From positions 923,324-987,323 of the forward strand of contig NZ_LR732469.1 of the NCBI RefSeq assembly GCF_902506425.1: a stretch of DNA of 64,000 nucleotides, written 5' to 3'. Each line of letters begins with the position of its first letter. The first letter of the stretch is position 1. The notes below the pieces were generated by a model. That model searched no databases. It saw nothing but the letters and a program-made list of their open reading frames with translations, and was not told the DNA's origin. This document shows positions 1,483-57,212 of the stretch, in pieces. This DNA is from Novosphingobium sp. 9U (GTDB taxonomy: Bacteria; Pseudomonadota; Alphaproteobacteria; Sphingomonadales; Sphingomonadaceae). The position numbers were made by a program, and so were the translations under genes.

Positions 1483-2910
1483 CTACTTGAACGACCTTGC
1501 GACATACTCCGCCCGCCGCCGCGTCATCTCCTGGTGTCGTTCCTTCGCGGTCACGACGCCGAGTTGGTCCTGCAGCGTCTTCGTGGTCTCGGCATTCAGC
1601 TTGACCACCCGAACGCTCCGGACCAGCTTCTCCGATGGCACTGAGGTCGGAACGCCGGTCCAGCGAAACACGACCGTGCCTTGGTGCAGCCCGGTCGTAT
1701 CCAGCCAATTCGGGACGTGCGGATCGGTGCCGGACAGGACATACGTGACGACGCCCGAGGCATCGGCCTTGCTCTGGCTGATGTTGAGGCTGCTGTGATG
1801 CAGGCTGTGGTCTGGAGACACCATGTAGGGCCCTGTCACCTGCGCCCCGGTGTAGGGCGCGCCGGCCCGGTCTAGTTGGACGACAAGGGCCTCATCGTCC
1901 GCCAGCTTGAAGTTGGTGATGGTCAGGCGGCCCCACCCGCCATCGCGGACTGCGGGTGTCGGGACGGTGTTGATGGGTGGATTACCCATCAGCGTCTTGG
2001 TGATGTAGAAGTTGTGCAGCGACCATTCGGCAAGATCGGCGACGAACTGGTCGACGCGCGCCGCGGTGGTCAGCGCCGGCGGCGTAGGCTCGCTGTCGAC
2101 GCGGCGGATGGAAAAGTGCGTCGGCCGTTCGCGCCAGTCGTCGAAGATGTTTCTCAGGATCCCGAAGGCCGGACCTGCCGGGATCTGGATGTGGTTGCTG
2201 CGACCGGGTGCACTCTCACCGTCGATCGCGATCTCGAAATTGCCGCATGGATCGACTTTGATCGCCGTCTCATCCAGCATTCCGAGCTGAACTCCGCTGT
2301 CCACGCGCTTGCCTGCTGCCGGGATGCCGAGGGAGTGACGGACCGATCCCGCACGGACATCGAGGCTGTAGTGCCGGACGCTATCCGGCGCCACGTGGCC
2401 GGTGAGGATGTACTTGTAGCGCCCGTCGAGACCCGTGAAGCGGTAGACGTTGTCGGGACTATCGCCGGCGGTGCCCGCTCCCGGAAAACTGATGCCGTGC
2501 CACGTGTGAAGAGCGGGTTCTATGTCCCGGATCACGGCGGGCCGCGCCGCGTCCGGCCCTGCCTCGCGCAGAGCGAGCGACGTAGCCCACTGGTTCACGG
2601 CATAGCTCAACCATTTGTCGTCGACGCCATTGGCGAGAGACTCCTGATTGAGCCGCTCCTTGAACCGGGCCTTGGCTGCAATGGCTTTCGGATCGGCCAG
2701 GATCCGCAACGCCTCGCGCTCTGCGCCGAGCTGCTCCGGCGTCGCAAGGGTGGCGGTGGGCTGACGCGTCGGGCACGCGCTCGATGCCGCCTCCGTCGCT
2801 TGCACCGCGGCCTGCGCGTGGCTGCCGGTCCAGATCGCCGCGGAACACAGCACCGCAACCAGCGCCGCGTGGCGGGGAGGAAGGCTGGACGACCGTCGCG
2901 TAACCGGCAT
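1483..2910 (-). CDS. DUF1214-family exported protein
   Basis: A 475-residue protein that begins with a signal peptide (hydrophobic run AALVAVLCSAAIWTG followed by an Ala-rich cleavage region), so it is probably periplasmic. The C-terminal half resembles DUF1214 domains, with motifs around GGWGRLTITNFKL, DDEALVVQLDRAGAPY and a GTDPHVPNWLDTTG block. The ATG at 2910 is preferred over a GTG 36 bases upstream because it has an AGAGGA ribosome-binding site and starts directly before the signal peptide. A paralogue without a signal peptide lies at 15966-17171. The biochemical function of the family is not established. It is convergent with the MFS gene and divergent from the Old-Yellow-Enzyme gene, with the upstream spacer holding two copies of the cluster's TGTAAT motif on the other strand. 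Confidence 0.7.
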   Translation of the reverse strand: MPVTRRSSSLPPRHAALVAVLCSAAIWTGSHAQAAVQATEAASSACPTRQPTATLATPEQLGAEREALRILADPKAIAAKARFKERLNQESLANGVDDKWLSYAVNQWATSLALREAGPDAARPAVIRDIEPALHTWHGISFPGAGTAGDSPDNVYRFTGLDGRYKYILTGHVAPDSVRHYSLDVRAGSVRHSLGIPAAGKRVDSGVQLGMLDETAIKVDPCGNFEIAIDGESAPGRSNHIQIPAGPAFGILRNIFDDWRERPTHFSIRRVDSEPTPPALTTAARVDQFVADLAEWSLHNFYITKTLMGNPPINTVPTPAVRDGGWGRLTITNFKLADDEALVVQLDRAGAPYTGAQVTGPYMVSPDHSLHHSSLNISQSKADASGVVTYVLSGTDPHVPNWLDTTGLHQGTVVFRWTGVPTSVPSEKLVRSVRVVKLNAETTKTLQDQLGVVTAKERHQEMTRRRAEYVARSFK

Positions 2911-3030
2911 TTGAAGTTCCTCTGCTCTTGCCCTGATCGAAGTCACGTCGACCGGGCTCTGCCTGCCTTGTGTCCGCCACCTGACAGCTACGCCAGTCTT
3001 CGGCGGTCCGGTATGCTCACCCGCCTAGGC

Positions 3031-3048
3031 ATTAGGCTTGTAATAGTC
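3031..3048 (+). promoter_or_regulatory. candidate cluster motif, TGTAAT copy 1a
   Basis: The sequence ATTAGGCTTGTAATAGTC has its core TGTAAT at 3039-3044. It lies between the divergent DUF1214 and OYE genes, 206 bases before the OYE start. It is a weaker copy because it lacks the preceding CAT. Confidence 0.25.
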
Positions 3049-3139
3049 ACGCTCCTCGCGTCTCATCTTACCGCCGCAACATCTCAAATTTAGACTCACT
3101 GCCATTGGATCTAGCGAGCGGGGAAGGCGCTGGTTTCAA

Positions 3140-3156
3140 GTTCATGTGTAATGCAG
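3140..3156 (+). promoter_or_regulatory. candidate cluster motif, TGTAAT copy 1b
   Basis: TTCATG is followed by core TGTAAT at 3147-3152, 98 bases before the ATG of the Old-Yellow-Enzyme gene. It matches the arrangement seen upstream of other units in the cluster: CAT-like triplet, one or two bases, then TGTAAT. Confidence 0.4.
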
Positions 3157-3249
3157 TGAGGGACGCGTGCAGACGCTTTGATTGCGGCACATCGTCATGA
3201 TAGCCCGATCGCAACGACAGAACAGGGGATCGAGGAGAGGTGGTGAGCG

Positions 3250-4377
3250 ATGACCAGTCTTTTTGAGCCGGTGACGATGATCCGCGGCCCCCAGATGAAG
3301 AACCGCTTTGTCCTGGCGCCCATGACCAATCAGCAGAGCCACGCGGATGGCACCGTAAGCGAGGACGAGTCCCGCTGGCTGGCCAAGCGCGCCGAAGGGC
3401 AGTTTGGCCTGGTGATGACGGCCGCGGCGCACGTCCAGCCTTCAGGGCAAGGTTTCCCGGGCCAGATCGCCGCATATGATGATTGTCATGTCGACGGCTT
3501 GCGCACGCTCGCCTCGACCCTGCGCGAACGGGGTGCGGTGTCGTCGCTGCAACTCTATCACGGCGGCCTGCGGTCTCCGCCCGCTCTGGTCGGCAAGCCG
3601 CTCGGACCGTCCAGTTCGGAAGGCGGGTCGGTTTACGGCACTGGGGGCGCCCCGCTCGAGTCGGACGGCTTTCGCGGACTGACCCTCGACGAGATCGCGG
3701 GACTGCGCGCAGCCTTCGTCCAAGCGGCGCTACGCGCCGAACGCGCGGGGTTCGACGGGGTCGAGATCCATGGCGCGCACGGCTACTTGCTTTGTGCGTT
3801 CCTCTCGCCCGAACTCAACCAGCGCGACGATGAGTACGGCGGCAGTTTGGCGAACCGCTCGCGCCTCATGTTCGAGGTCGTGGATGACATCCGGCGCGCT
3901 TGCGGCCCGCAGTTTCAGCTTGGGCTGCGGCTGTCGACAGAGCGCTACGGCATGCGACTTGGCGAAGTGAAGGACGTCGCCGCCGAGTTTCTGCGAGAAG
4001 CGAAAATCGACTACCTCGACTTGTCGTTGTGGGACGTGAACAAGCGGCCGGCCGAGCCCGGGTATGGCGATGACTCGTTGCTGAGCCATTTCGTTTCGTT
4101 GTCGCGAGGTGACGTGCGGCTAGGCGCCGCCGGCAAGATCATGGGCGGCGCGGGAGCGGCGGCCCTGCTCGACGCAGGATGCGACTTCGCGGTGATCGGC
4201 AAGGCCGGCATCGTGCGGCACGACTTCCCCATGCGCGTGCAGCGCGATCCGCTCTACAAAGCGCCGGCGCTTCCGGTGAGCGTGGCCGAGCTTGAGAGAG
4301 AGGCGGTAAGCACCGCCTTTCTGGAATTCATGAGGGGGAACCTCGCAGGGTTCCTGCGTGAAGAGGAGAGTGCCTAG
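3250..4377 (+). CDS. NADH:flavin oxidoreductase, Old Yellow Enzyme family
   Basis: A 375-residue FMN-dependent oxidoreductase with a TIM barrel, the usual single-domain OYE length. Family motifs are KNRFVLAPMTNQ near residue 17, QLYHGG near 99, VEIHGAHGYLL near 173 (substrate-binding His pair region), and the LNQRDDEYGGSLANRSR block near 191. The C-terminal GKAGIVRHDF belongs to the phosphate-binding end of the barrel. OYEs reduce activated C=C bonds of enones or enoyl thioesters using NAD(P)H. The gene starts 98 bases after a TGTAAT motif and is followed 42 bases later by an SDR in the same direction, so the two probably form one operon reducing and oxidising ring or side-chain intermediates. 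The exact substrate is unknown. Confidence 0.88.
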   Translation: MTSLFEPVTMIRGPQMKNRFVLAPMTNQQSHADGTVSEDESRWLAKRAEGQFGLVMTAAAHVQPSGQGFPGQIAAYDDCHVDGLRTLASTLRERGAVSSLQLYHGGLRSPPALVGKPLGPSSSEGGSVYGTGGAPLESDGFRGLTLDEIAGLRAAFVQAALRAERAGFDGVEIHGAHGYLLCAFLSPELNQRDDEYGGSLANRSRLMFEVVDDIRRACGPQFQLGLRLSTERYGMRLGEVKDVAAEFLREAKIDYLDLSLWDVNKRPAEPGYGDDSLLSHFVSLSRGDVRLGAAGKIMGGAGAAALLDAGCDFAVIGKAGIVRHDFPMRVQRDPLYKAPALPVSVAELEREAVSTAFLEFMRGNLAGFLREEESA

Positions 4378-49318: not shown

Positions 49319-50006
49319 ATGACGGCTTTCCCGATTGACCGGCCATTTTTTCGCTACGTCAGCGCATGCTCGACGACATGACGATGCGGGCGATGAGGTC
49401 GCGCACCCAGCACGACTATGTTCGTCAAGTCCGCGCCTTCGCGGCTTCCCTGCGGCGATCGCCTGATGAAGCGACTGCGGAGGATGTCGCCGCTTCCAGG
49501 TTCACCAGCGCGAGCACGGTGTGGAGAGTCCATCATCAACGGCTCTGTATCGGCGTTGCGGTTCGAAGTTCGATGTGACGCTTGAGCGACCTGACCTCTC
49601 CCGGCGCCTGGTGCTGGCGCATCGTCCCAGGAAGGTGCCTAACGTACTGAACGTCGAGCAGGTGGCAAAGCTGCTCGAGGCGGCACCGGGCATCAAGTAT
49701 CGGGCGGCGCTCGGCGTCGCCTATGGTGCCGGCCTGCGTGTGTCGGAGGTCGCGCACCTCAAGGCCGACGATATCGACAGCAAGCGGATGCTGATCCGCA
49801 TCGAAGAGGGTAAAGGGCGCAAGGACCGCAACGCCATGCTCTCGCCCCAGCTGCTCGAGCTACTGCGCCTGTGGTGGCGCGAGGGCAAGCGGCGCAGCGT
49901 CCCGCTGCCGCATGGCTGGCTTTTCCCTGGGCGCAGTTACACCGACCCGATCTCGACACGGCAGTTGCACCGAGCCGTCTGCGAAGCGACCGAGGCAGCG
50001 GGCATC
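49319..50006 (+). pseudogene. tyrosine recombinase of an IS91-type unit, frameshifted and truncated
   Basis: The protein is recognisable as the recombinase that accompanies IS91-like transposases: MTAFPIDRPFFRYVSA, then in another frame MLDDMTMRAMRSRTQHDYVRQV, then FQVHQREHGVESPS, a short INGSVSALRF block, and finally a long frame from FDVTLERPDLSRRLVL through GAGLRVSEVAHLKADDI (catalytic Arg) and EEGKGRKDRNA (Lys). It ends at about DPISTRQLHRAVCEATEAAGI. At least four indels lie between 49365 and 49560. The His-x-x-Arg and Tyr active-site boxes are deleted, and the frame runs directly into IS91 transposase sequence, so it is inactive. Confidence 0.82.
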
Positions 50007-50107
50007 CGCAACCGTCACTGCCCGCGGTGCCAGGGTGGCGCCGCGCGCACGTGGCTCGAAGCGCGTGAGGCCGATCTGCTGCCGGTCGGCTTCTGTGGTT
50101 GCCGCCC

Positions 50108-50366
50108 GGTGTGCAAGAGGGTTTTGATCGAATGCGCGCGTGATCGAGTGCGGTCTTCTGTCAGGCCTTTCTATGCGGCATTTGCAGAAGCCGCGGGCCA
50201 GTATGGTGATCTGCGGATCAGGTCCAAATCTACTTTCCGAGCTTTATCGCTCATGCCAACCGGCTGGTTTTCCTCATCCAGATCTGTTCGATCATTGTGC
50301 CCATTCGGGTCGTCGCCTTCTCACACCCCCTTTATCCGGCGTCAGGTAGTTTTAGCGGCATGTCGA
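50108..50366 (-). ncRNA. candidate bridge/seek RNA of the IS1111-type element
   Basis: The 3' non-coding part of the element is where IS1111-group elements encode their guide RNA. Three short segments match the ends or junctions. ATCTACTTTC at 50228-50237 equals the right junction 51470-51479. CAGAAGCCG at 50185-50193 is the reverse complement of the left junction 50087-50095. TCTTCTGT at 50154-50161 equals core CT plus the left-end bases. A 5-bp stem (TGATC-TGCG-GATCA, 50207-50220) lies between the two junction matches. The RNA would be read on the minus strand, downstream of the transposase. Confidence 0.5.
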
Positions 50367-51385
50367 TCATGCTGCGGCTGCCTGCGCCGAATCTCGGTAA
50401 TCCTCGTTTTTCGTCAACATAGCCCAGATTGTTCGCGCCATCTTGTTGGCCAAGGCGATCGCGACAAGCATCCTTGGCTTTCGCGCCGCGATGCGTGCCA
50501 GCCACGAGCCTTCCGGAATTGATTTTCGGCCGAGCCAATTCAGGCGCGACATTGCTCCGATAATCAGAAGTCTCCGGATATCGCTCTGCCCCGCCTTCGA
50601 TACCCGACCGAGCCGTTCTTTCCCGCCCGAGGAGAATTGGCGCGGGACGAGGCTAAGCCAGGCGGCAAAGTCGCGGCCGCAGCGGAAACTCTCCATAGGT
50701 GGAGCAAAGGCTTCGACAGCCAGTGCGGTCAACGGACCAACTCCCGGGATTGTCTGCAAGCGCCGCGCAGTATCCGCTTCAGCTGCGAGAGCCTTGATCT
50801 TCGCCGTCCGGGCATCGATGCGGAACATCTTCTCGGCAATCTGCTTCATCAGATCGCCGCACTCCTCGCGCATCAGTTCGGGCAGGTCGCTGTTTGGTCC
50901 ATCCAGGATGCCTTTGATCCTGCCGAGCTGGTGAATTCCCTGCGGAACGACATGGCCAAATTCGTAGAGGCACGCTCGAAGAGCGTTCACCAGCTCCGTG
51001 CGCTGGTGGACCAGCCGCTCTCGAGCGCGAAACAGGATGGTACGGCTTTGCTGCTCCGCAGACTTGAGCTCGACGAAACGCATTTCCGGCCGCTGTGCAG
51101 CGATCACGATAGCTTCGGCATCCGCCGCGTCGTTCTTCTGCCGTTCACGTAACGCGGAGCGATCAGCTTCACCTCATGGCCGCGCCTGCTCATCTCGCGC
51201 GCCCAGTAATGCGCGCTGCCGCACGCTTCCATGACTACAATGCTGGGAGGCTGCTTGGCCATGAACTCAGCAAAACCCTGCCGAGACAATTTCTTTCGAA
51301 ACTTCGGCTGTCCGGTCATCGATGCGCCGTGCAGCTGGAAAACAGATTTTGCCAAATCTACGCCGATCATCGTATCCTTTATCAC
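50367..51385 (-). pseudogene. IS1111/IS110-family transposase, small internal deletion
   Basis: The N-terminal RuvC-like DEDD domain has Asp in MIGVDLAKSVFQLHG and Glu in IVVMEACGSAHYWAREM. After KLIAPRYV the frame shifts, because a short segment (about ten or more bases, expected to encode KPYVK) is missing near 51148. The following frame reads RQKNDAADAEAIVIAAQRPE with the remaining two Asp residues, and then the coiled region and the C-terminal Tnp20 domain with GPLTALAVEAFAP, GRDFAAWLSLVPRQ and SSGGKERLGRVSKAGQ (serine nucleophile region). Each half is intact, but no single protein can be made without frame recovery. The start is a GTG at 51385 or an ATG at 51370. Confidence 0.85.
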
Positions 51386-52384
51386 GGTTGCCGTCCTTTC
51401 CGCTCAGTGGCCCCAACGCCACCAACCTGGCACATTGCGATGCCGTCTGGGGAGGGCGGCAACCACCCCATCTACTTTCATGTCGTTTTCACGCTGCCCA
51501 GCGAGATCGCCGACATCGCCTACCACAACAAGGCCGCGCTCTATGGTCTGCTGTTCAAGGCGGCGTCCGATACGATGATGACGATCGCGGCGGATCCCAA
51601 GCACCTGGGCGCCCGCATCGGCATCACCGCCGTGCTTCACACGTGGGGCTCGGCGATGACGCATCATCCGCACATCCACATGATCGTGCCGGGCGGCGGC
51701 ATCGCCCGGGATGGCTCGCGCTGGATATCGTCGCGTCCGGCGTTCCTGCTGCCGGTGCGGGTCCTAGGCAAGCTATTCCGCCGTCTGTTCCTGACCGGGC
51801 TGCTGGCACTGCATCAGGCTGGCCGTATCGCCTTCTACGGCAGCTTGGAGCACCTCGCCGACCGACGCGCCTTCCTGCGCCATCTCTCCCCGGTGAGAAA
51901 GAAGAGCTGGGTTGTCTATGCCAAGCCGCCGTTTGCCGGACCTGAGGCCGTCCTCGCCTATCTGTCGCGCTACACACACCGGGTTGCGATCTCGAACAGT
52001 CGCCTTGTGGGCATCGATGATGACGGGGTGACCTTCCGGTACAAAGATTACCGTCGCAACGGAGCCGACTGCCAGCAGACCATGACGTTGAGTGCCGACG
52101 AATTCATCCGCCGCTTCCTGCTTCACGTCCTGCCCAAGGGCTTCCACCGCATCCGCCACTACGGCCTGCTCGCCAGCTCTGCCCGCAAGACCAGTCTCGC
52201 TCGCGCCCGCCAGTTGCTAGGTATCGCGTCGCCGCCTCCCGACACTCCCGAAGACCTACCTGATGTCCGCCCGCCTTGTCCTTGCTGCGGCGGGCACATG
52301 GTCGTCATCGAAACCTTCGAGCGCTGGCAACAGCCGCGAGCCCCTCCTCGCACCACCCTGCCGACCGGAAAGATCGCGCCATGA

Positions 52385-55147: not shown

Positions 55148-55242
55148 TCTAAGCTGGCGTGAGTAGAGTCAGGAGGTGGCGCGGTATCGTGCGGTTCGCC
55201 TGTGGAGCTTACCAGACGACCCGTTTTCACCCCTTGCTCATT

Positions 55243-55276
55243 GAACCGGACATGCGGATCTCCCTGCATCCGGCTC
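55243..55276 (-). ncRNA. group II intron domain V
   Basis: Read on the minus strand, GAGCCGGATGCAGGG, a GAGA-type turn and TCCGCATGTCCGGTTC form the conserved 34-nt domain V hairpin: paired ends GAGCCGGA/TCCGGTTC, a middle bulge and an inner stem GCA/TGC. This is the catalytic centre of the ribozyme and appears intact. Confidence 0.85.
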
Positions 55277-55288
55277 TCGGACAAAGCA

Positions 55289-56683
55289 TCACGCCTTCAC
55301 CCACGGCGCGCCCCGACCAAGCTGGGTAAGACGTACGAGCCCGTACTGCTCGTAGAGGTGCTGGGGTAGATAAGCTTCCGCCCTCTTGCCGGCTTTCCCG
55401 TGCTTGCGCCGAAGCCACCGACGCAGCCGCACCACCGTGTAGCTATCGATCGCGCGGTACGCCCTGCGCGTGGTGCCAACCGAAAAGTAGTTGGCCCATC
55501 CGCGCAGCGCCCGGTTGATCTTGCCCACCAGCACTGTGGCATCCTGCCATGTAGACCTTCGCTCGGTGAGCGTGTGGATGGTCTCCACCGCCCGCTTGAT
55601 GCTCTTCTTGGACGGCCGATGGCCCATGTAGGCTCGCCCCGTCTTCGCCGAGTACATCTGCCCGAAGGTGTAACCCAGAAAGTCGAACCTCTCGTCCGGC
55701 ACCTTGCAGATGCGGGTCTTCTCCTCGTTCAATGTCAGCTTCAGCTTGCCCATCAGCCTGCGCATGTGATCGAGCGCAGCTTCCGCATTGCTCTTCGTAC
55801 ACAGGATGACGAGGTCGTCGGCGTAAGTGACAAGCCGAGCGCCGGGGCGTTGCCCAAGGCCGAGCTTCCGCCACCCCAGCACGAACCGGCGCATGTATAG
55901 ATTTGCCAGCAAGGGTTAGATGGGTGATCCTTGCGGGAGGCCGCGTCGCTGATCCCGGGCCGCCGTCGTTCGTGTCTTCCGACCCCGGTTGTCGACCTCC
56001 TCGACAGCACAGTTCAACCACAACCTGATCAGGTGCAGCACGCGCGGATCGACGATCCGGCGAGCCACGGACTTCATCAGTTCGGGATGAGGAATGCTGC
56101 CGAAGTAGTCGGCAAGGTCGGCGTCCACGACATCAGGACGGCCTTGAAACAGCTGGTCTTCCACATCGGTCACGGCCTGCTGGGCGTTGCGCCCGGCACG
56201 GTAGGCGTAGATTTCAGGTGGAAGGTCGGCCTCGAAGATCGGCTCCAGCACCAGCATCGCTGCTGTCATGCAGACCCGATCCCGCACGGTGGAGATGCCC
56301 AGCGGCCTGAGTTTGCCGTTGGCTTTCGATATATGGACCCGTCTGATCGGTTCCGGTCGGTAGGTCTCCTCTCTGAGCGCAAGCGCCAGTTTCGCTAGCC
56401 ACCGCTCGACGCCATACGCCTCGATGTCCGCAAAGCCCTGGCCATCCACACCCGGTGCGCCCCTGTTGGAGCGGCACTTGGCATAAGCATGGGCCAGAAT
56501 GTCATCGCGGCTGATCTTGTCGTACAGCGCGTAGAAGCGATAGCCGGCTTCCGCCTTCGCTTTCGCGTGTAACGCCATCTGCAGTTTCTGGACGCACTTC
56601 GGAGTTGATAGGTTTCCCAATCTCCTGTCCTTTCCCGCTTGCTGCGTTCGCCTTGAACTGAGGCCCCTTCCCTCCACCGGCAT
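55289..56683 (-). pseudogene. ltrA: group II intron reverse transcriptase/maturase with one in-frame stop
   Basis: The two open parts, 56683-55916 and 55912-55289, are in the same frame separated by a single TAA (complement of 55916-55918). Upstream are RSNRGAPGVDGQGFADIEAY, NGKLRPLGISTVRDRV, VVDADLADYFGSIPH (first catalytic Asp) and RRGLPQGSPI. Immediately after the stop comes [18 protein letters not shown] in the conserved QGSPISPLLANLY motif would become TAA by one C-to-A change. Downstream [11 protein letters not shown] is the YADD catalytic box, then [17 protein letters not shown] is the maturase domain. There is no HNH endonuclease domain. Without suppression only a 255-residue fragment lacking YADD is made. 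Confidence 0.88.
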
Positions 56684-57212
56684 TACCCGGTTTCCCCGGT
56701 ACTACGAGCCTCTCCGCCACCCCATCGCGCCCATTCCTCCCTCGCGGGCGTCCGGTTGCTCATCCCTGAGCACGTGATTGGGCTTCCCGTGTTGCGTGCG
56801 CTTTCCTTGTACATGCTGCCGCCATTACTCCGGTGCAGCAGACGGGTTCCAAACGTCGCTCAAACGCCCGTCCATATCAGCCTTCCCCGAAATGGGTGTC
56901 GGGTCGGCCTGCACATCGACCTTTTCGAGGTTTGCTCAGCGTTTACTCACGTTGCGGCCTGCACACTCGCACGGTCACCTACGTGACCGTCATCCGGGGG
57001 CTTCAGACATTTCGTCACCTTCATGCCTGCCCCGGTTGCTTCCGGCGGGAGCAATTCGCCGGGTGGGACTTGCACCCACTAGAAAACGCCGCCTTTGCAC
57101 GGCGCACCCCAACTGCGGCCGTTCAGACCGCCCTGCTCGCTCTCCAACCTCTGCCCCTCGTTCATGTGGGCTCCGGCCCTTCCGGAACCAGCTCGCCACC
57201 TCCGGAATGACG

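Follow-up and report, generated by a model that had tools for sequence, protein, structure and literature searches.

The segment 50140..50299 (minus strand) of the window, the 64,000-nucleotide stretch of Novosphingobium sp. 9U DNA that was analysed, very probably specifies a bridge/seek RNA, with a target arm followed by a donor part, that belongs to an IS1111-group insertion sequence. Read on the transposase strand, the target arm would comprise a right target guide, a hairpin and a left target guide, all enclosed by a long stem. In the donor part, a probable right donor guide would be separated by a stem-loop from the left donor guide that follows. Covariation among related elements shows the fold, both target guides and the left donor guide. 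This is a guide RNA system of known kind, to which we here add covariation evidence for the donor guide in this IS1111 clade.

The element occupies positions 50092..51473 on the minus strand (1382 bp, with one copy of the AG core counted at the left, transposase-upstream end). In DNA searches the matching of most plasmid relatives stops at query positions 41 and 1424, which correspond to 50090 and 51473, and AG is found at the junction in both flanks when these are read on the transposase strand. The subterminal inverted repeats are perfect over 13 bp and have similar counterparts in relatives; the left one (GTGGTTGCCGCCC on the minus strand, 51454..51466) is separated from the left end by 7 bp, AG included, and the right one (50095..50107, minus strand) from the right end by 3 bp. 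The terminal extensions are AGATGGG (7 bp, left) and AGA (3 bp, right), one AG being assigned to the left end. Subterminal repeats 7 and 3 bp from the ends are the rule described for IS1111 elements (PMC11187229), and the window agrees with it both in its 7/3-bp extensions and in its 13-bp repeats (about 11-13 bp in the group). The junctions are fixed by the existence of empty sites in relatives: the flanks joined at one AG (CT on the plus strand) align gap-free in 11 of 12 regions fetched from relatives, with 68-76 of 89 bases identical, and the twelfth region, with 40 of 89 bases only, did not match the joined flanks.

The interrupted gene belongs to the IS91 family. Its 3' part (51474..52369, plus strand) matches the Y2 transposase domain (PF04986), and its 5' part (49521..50091, plus strand) is in frame with an upstream tyrosine recombinase (PF00589) and holds a Zn_Tnp_IS91 domain (PF14319) that scores 25.8 bits, slightly below the cut-off of 26.3. 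Without the element the frame reads LLPVGYFHVVFTLP, part of an IS91-family Y2 transposase, and the window copy is aimed at the LLPV-GYFHVVF codons of this gene. An earlier note on this DNA, drawn up from the sequence alone, had placed the target inside an IS91 transposase gene, as the Pfam match to PF04986 and the empty-site frame bear out. Over window positions 49521-50522 the recombinase frame passes directly into the later part of the IS91 zinc-binding domain, and in the relative on a Sphingobium sp. V4 plasmid (L036) the recombinase frame continues to its own end, which suggests that a deletion may have fused the two frames.

The transposase gene of the window copy is split into two pieces on the minus strand. 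The 3' piece (50367..51107, 246 aa) matches Transposase_20 (PF02371), and the 5' piece (51104..51385, 93 aa), which alone has no Pfam match, loses its frame at a 13-bp deletion relative to the V4 plasmid copy. Intact relatives carry both DEDD_Tnp_IS110 and Transposase_20 (five of five in Pfam). The V4 copy is 95% identical including its flanks, lies at the same place in the IS91 gene, encodes an intact transposase and is 13 bp longer inside that gene (element length without core 1393, vs 1380 in the window). The window transposase is broken, and the copy is therefore probably a fossil unless helped in trans; by itself, it probably cannot move. A non-coding region of 275 bp (50092-50366) follows the stop of the transposase frame, as is expected of IS1111 elements. 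The assignment to the IS1111 type made in the earlier note is supported (Transposase_20, subterminal repeats, terminal extensions and downstream non-coding region), and so is its placement of the RNA downstream of the transposase, the guide RNA region lying within this non-coding stretch. The hallmarks of the IS110 group of the IS621 type, namely an upstream RNA, the left guide first and no long subterminal repeats, were not found in this element.

The proposal of a guide RNA at this place had been built on three short matches between the non-coding region and the insertion junctions. ATCTACTTTC (50228-50237) is indeed identical to 51470-51479, and CAGAAGCCG (50185-50193) is the reverse complement of 50087-50095. 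The third, TCTTCTGT (50154-50161), had been read as the core plus the first bases of the element end; seven of its eight bases (CTTCTGT) equal the junction 50090-50096, and its first T falls outside. In 5000 dinucleotide shuffles of 50110-50366, compared with 22-nt junction windows, a 10-nt match was reached in 0.06% (own comparison) or 0.78% (all four comparisons), a 9-nt match in 0.44%, and both jointly in none, so that the two longer matches exceed chance; the third match (7 nt) was not significant alone, being reached in 29% of shuffles. That two matches run a few bases into the element ends had been entered as a caveat, and it is explained by near-fixed RNA bases and by the element end: the extra AT of the 10-nt match is near-fixed RNA (A in 60 and T in 63 of 66 alignment rows), and the CAGA of the 9-nt match is part of the element end. 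As the shuffles could not settle what the matches are, relatives were compared.

Relatives were gathered by a five-protein transposase alignment search and by DNA searches. Altogether 167 sequences were examined (166 loci and the window); no end pair was found in 46, and both ends were located in 121, some of which were more distant elements or had poor end matches. Within these 121, 85 had 14-nt flanks and both RNA anchors, the window duplicates L001 and L117 being left out, and they collapsed to 66 distinct sites, with the window counted under L036. The RNA alignment (A3) holds 66 rows, the window having been added and L095 removed by hand (part of its donor region is missing), and the covariation set holds 65, with L036 excluded as the same site as the window. 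In addition, 22 plasmid copies were hand-picked from hit lists of 84 and 52 records, seven of which were set aside as known or repeated sites. The resulting held-out set of 15 sites is incompletely independent: two pairs of sites have guides in common (both guides in L237 and L239, the right one in L241 and L244), and the guides of L234 are those of L099 from the first set. Some of the plasmid relatives adjoin annotated genes, which are repC for L237 and L239 and IS21 istA for L240, L242 and L251, the latter three having nearly common guides. In a census of targets, 75 unjoined flank fragments (of 81 sites) matched 24 Pfam families, many of them transposase domains; the fragments were chosen by longest open frame, some probably in wrong frames, and the census yields no count of targets.

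The relatives share a common RNA layout on the transposase strand, in which AAAACCAG or a close variant is followed by a variable stretch, by GAGC-loop-GCTC or variants, by a second variable stretch usually ending in AG, and by ATTTGGACC or variants. The first variable stretch is similar to the beginning of the right flank in reverse complement, and the second to the end of the left flank. In the window, these correspond to the right target guide CCGGUUGGC (50255..50263) and the left target guide GAAAGUAG (50230..50237, with AG as the core), and the target-loop hairpin GAGC-GAUAAA-GCUC (50239..50252), whose helix 4 shows compensatory changes, stands between them, all on the minus strand. Read along that strand, the right guide (50263-50255) precedes the left one (50237-50230), which is the IS1111 order.

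Both target guides follow their sites. Across the 65 sites, 4.31 of the 6 non-core bases of the left guide agree with the element's own left flank, vs 1.54 with the flanks of other elements (z 19), and the right guide agrees with its own right flank in 5.66 bases, vs 2.48 for other flanks (z 21); none of 20000 permutations reached either score in the RNA alignment columns. The held-out sites, in which guides were located by the rules applied to the first set, gave the same picture, with 5.13 of 7 own bases vs 1.91 for the left guide and 5.80 vs 3.03 for the right guide (0 of 20000 permutations in each case). When the 66 sites were ranked by summed guide score, 49 elements had their own site alone in first place and 17 did not, the worst ranks being those of L040, L042, L059, L060 and L112. 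Segment 50228-50237, put forward as a target guide in the earlier note, is thereby supported in that role, since it covaries with the left flank; other copies do insert at unrelated sequences, and their loops change with the sites.

The left target guide of the window is identical to its flank in eight of eight bases. The right target guide pairs with GCCGACCGG via one G-U and in the window leaves the first core base unpaired; its pairing with the V4 flank GCCAACCGG is perfect. Over 160 bases, the RNAs of the window and V4 copies differ at three positions, 50275, 50236 and 50170. The difference at 50236, in the left target guide, is mirrored by the same change in the flank, and that at 50275 breaks a pair of the target-arm stem in the window that is intact in V4. 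In a blind scan of RNA columns against flank and end positions, the top 21 rows contain links in the three guide segments and no others; lower rows include links (z up to 6.2) to the base eighth from the right end, which are presumed to reflect shared ancestry. No perfect target for the window guides was found elsewhere in the own genome, where the best candidate had one mismatch and reversed-pattern controls gave 28 matches vs 18 for the real pattern.

The consensus fold of the 66 sequences (RNAalifold) consists of an outer stem, a long target-arm stem, the target hairpin and a donor stem-loop. The named structure of 36 pairs has 94.6% of its cells paired, vs 20-46% in slid versions, and double changes occur in 15 pairs vs 6.5 in shuffles. 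With E up to 1, a covariance model built on the alignment matches the window at a single place, the guide RNA region (160 positions, 170.5 bits); the window is itself one of the 66 model rows. Folded alone, the window RNA (50115-50300) is moderately stable (z -2.1). The stem-loop that the earlier note had seen between its first two matches is present as the palindrome TGATC-TGCG-GATCA (50207-50220), but the consensus fold of the 66 elements places these bases in or beside the 3' strand of a longer stem.

The covariance model matches 22 of 98 genomes at E 1e-5, with eight places in the own genome (G000). The further matches there lie at C8:22117-22273, C45:2850-3003, C1:72981-73135, C23:19963-20114, C56:1-128, C10:1-127 and C74:9774-9896; three of these seven are partial (model positions 16 to 151-153), and the C8 match lies in L002, a more distant element whose core is CG. 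Rfam at gathering score returned no IS1111 guide family in the window and two group II intron matches only, both on the minus strand within 55202-57081 (RF02003 at 56947-57081 and RF00029 at 55202-55278). Between them lies a reading frame in two pieces (55916-56683 and 55289-55912), presumably a group II intron reverse transcriptase.

In the donor part, the left donor guide ACAGAAG (50155..50161, minus strand) is identical to the right end of the element plus the core (ACAGA + AG). It corresponds to what is called the left donor guide in IS621. It is exact in 62 of 65 elements, namely all 41 that have the common end and core and 21 of the 24 in which end or core varies (the exceptions are L042, L085 and L114), and the early reading of 50154-50161 as a donor guide can be retained. 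Donor variants are mostly mirrored in the RNA, as seen for the ends ACACA, ACAAA, ACAAG, AGAGA, ATAGA and AAAGA and for the cores GA and GG. The guide is likewise exact in 22 of 22 plasmid copies, three variant ends included. Among 16 elements that are more distant and have TG or CG cores, 14 had a candidate, which in every case equalled the right end plus core; the search pattern required AC at the start, and the core agreed with the left or the right flank. For the right donor guide we propose ACCAUAC (50201..50207, minus strand), which its position in the fold, between the target arm and the stem-loop, makes the probable candidate, and whose CCAU is complementary to AUGG of the left end. 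This region and the left-end AUGG are both nearly invariant across elements, and the blind scan gave no covariation link above z 4.5 between the right donor guide and the left-end bases. The donor-side stem-loop (GGCC / GCGGC ... GCCGC / GGCC, 50164..50199, minus strand) is drawn from the consensus fold and contains 50185-50193.

Two further roles have been considered for this stem-loop. In the first, which we regard as improbable, CUUCUG (50190-50185) would be a second donor-reading segment that pairs with CAGAAG of the right end, or a switch that pairs with the left donor guide within the RNA and hides it until the donor is bound. The two sequences are complementary in the consensus, the 41 elements whose end and core are the common ones keep 5.1 of the 6 bases, and the lowest-energy fold of the window RNA alone does replace the donor stem-loop by a helix of 50194-50185 with 50150-50160, which covers the left donor guide. 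Against this, CUUCUG in the 24 variant donors matches the common end (4.1 of 6) better than the own end (3.5 of 6), and its tracking of the donor end reaches z 1.4 overall. Compensated pairs in the alternative helix number 2 vs 1.7 in shuffles, its cells with double changes 5 vs 2.2 (30 of 500 shuffles were as high), and by eye other loops occupy that place in more distant elements. A second donor guide or switch at CUUCUG is thus without support from end variants or from compensation.

In the other, proposed in the earlier note, 50228-50237 and 50185-50193 would be the two target guides, left then right, in the order of IS110/IS621. Both matches are longer than expected by chance, and the three non-core bases of the second segment favour their own right flank slightly (0.985 vs 0.896 for others, z 3.7), which is a small but non-zero effect. 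However, 50185-50193 forms one strand and the loop of a conserved hairpin, GCGGC-loop-GCCGC, whose helix 6 has compensatory changes. The segment is also near constant: the exact 9-mer occurs in 24 of 65 elements, and its start, CGG, in 60 of 65 despite unrelated right flanks, with 2.54 of 5 bases agreeing with the own right flank vs 2.48 with those of other elements. The segment that does track the right flank, at z 21, is a different one, 5' of the left guide, and the corrected placement and order fit the published IS1111 rule instead. Constant while the sites change, 50185-50193 is rejected as the right target guide for its constancy across the 65 elements and for helix 6, and we consider the scheme as a whole to be very improbable; two of its three matches had been placed correctly, and the second segment had not. 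Equally improbable is that flank DNA was captured into the non-coding region and the RNA guides nothing, which by reasoning would produce such matches in one copy, but the same RNA positions match at 65 + 15 distinct sites and the two halves match opposite strands, ending at or about the core. For ISEc11, guide swaps that redirect insertion have been published (PMC11187229).

The preferred reading remains a bridge/seek RNA with a target arm and a donor part. As published work on IS1111 and IS621 would suggest, the RNA may be transcribed through the transposase from the circle junction. It would then be bound by the transposase, with strand exchange at the core, by analogy with the IS621 and ISEc11 papers, and a complex of the DEDD transposase would hold the two loops and link the circle to the target at AG.

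The element resembles the seekRNA elements ISEc11, ISPa11 and ISKpn4 in its DEDD transposase, its subterminal repeats with 7/3-bp extensions, its non-coding region 3' of the transposase, the natural redirection between relatives and the guide order, in which the segment that matches the top strand precedes the one that matches the bottom strand (Siddiquee et al., 2024, PMC11187229). Target matches of IS1111 elements were defined experimentally by Siddiquee et al. (PMC11187229), and donor-binding nucleotides of some were predicted by inspection by Durrant et al. (PMC11208160). Unlike the account of ISEc11, ISPa11 and ISKpn4, the relevant passages of which concern target matches only (PMC11187229), the present data support a donor guide by covariation. 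ISEc11 produces RNAs of 154 and 82 nt, the shorter of which is sufficient for movement (PMC11187229). Our fold measures 154 nt from one outer stem strand to the other, with 77 nt for the target arm by itself, and these lengths may correspond to the two ISEc11 RNAs. If they do, the sufficiency of the 82-nt RNA speaks against a needed donor guide in that assay.

Likeness to the IS621 bridge RNA lies in the two loops, in left and right guides that read opposite strands (PMC11208160, PMC11208158), in the inclusion of the core within the guides and in the presence of a donor loop besides the target loop (Durrant et al., 2024; Hiraizumi et al., 2024). In IS621 the RNA lies upstream of the transposase with the left guide first, whereas here it lies downstream with the right guide first (PMC11208160). 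The donor guides would lie around a multiloop, an arrangement that Durrant et al. predicted in many IS1111 elements (PMC11208160). No further paper on IS1111 guide anatomy was among those listed by literature searches, preprints and most subscription papers being outside their scope.

ISEc21 of the IS110 group likewise aims at conserved transposase codons, those of the IS3 family rather than of IS91, but its RNA lies upstream of the gene and its guide order is reversed (PMC11187229). A subclade of our relatives (L048 at 2752-4140, L049, L061 at 2578-3969 and L065 at 1294-2685) has the left target guide TTGCAGAAG, which aims at the KRQK-ND codons of IS1111-group transposases; the flanks place L048, L049 and L061 exactly at these codons and L065 elsewhere. 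The four elements' own transposase genes have AAA, not AAG, at the core Lys and thus no AG core there. Self-avoidance by this codon was considered and set aside, as AAA occurs in 35 of 116 elements and the case comes from a single clade, so that it may be chance. A pattern search for more KRQK-ND-aimed elements found none in 385 genomes, and 51 viral stretches were taken as chance matches.

The right target guide occurs in two registers, one base apart relative to the hairpin (A3 columns 39-50). In the first (40 elements) the RNA base directly after the core of the guide complements the base immediately left of the core in the element's own target in 68%, vs 30% in permutations (0 of 5000 as high), and the donor end base in 28%; in the held-out set the own target base was matched in 6 of 12 (P 0.047). 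In the second (24 of 65 elements, the window included) the RNA in most cases has a base other than U opposite the first core base, and the figures are 17% for the own target base and 46% for the donor end base. At the same RNA place IS621 has a handshake base that serves the donor, and pairing with the own target there blocks strand exchange (PMC11208158); here, by contrast, the base beyond the core tends to match the own target in 40 of 65 elements. It is conceivable, though we hold it to be rather doubtful, that the right target guide of this clade continues across the core to pair with a single further top-strand base of the element's own target, in the left half. If true, IS1111 would use a four-guide RNA with an exchange geometry or strand order unlike that of IS621, and a different geometry would match the reversed IS1111 guide order.

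The comparison also shows that short matches from a single insertion can mislead, as the 9-nt match exceeded chance and yet was no target guide. IS1111 seekRNAs are programmable insertion systems, and the natural variety of this clade, with about 80 different sites and several donor-end variants, makes the guides readable by covariation. The result is a testable map that runs from the right target guide through the hairpin, the left target guide and the stem-loop to the left donor guide.
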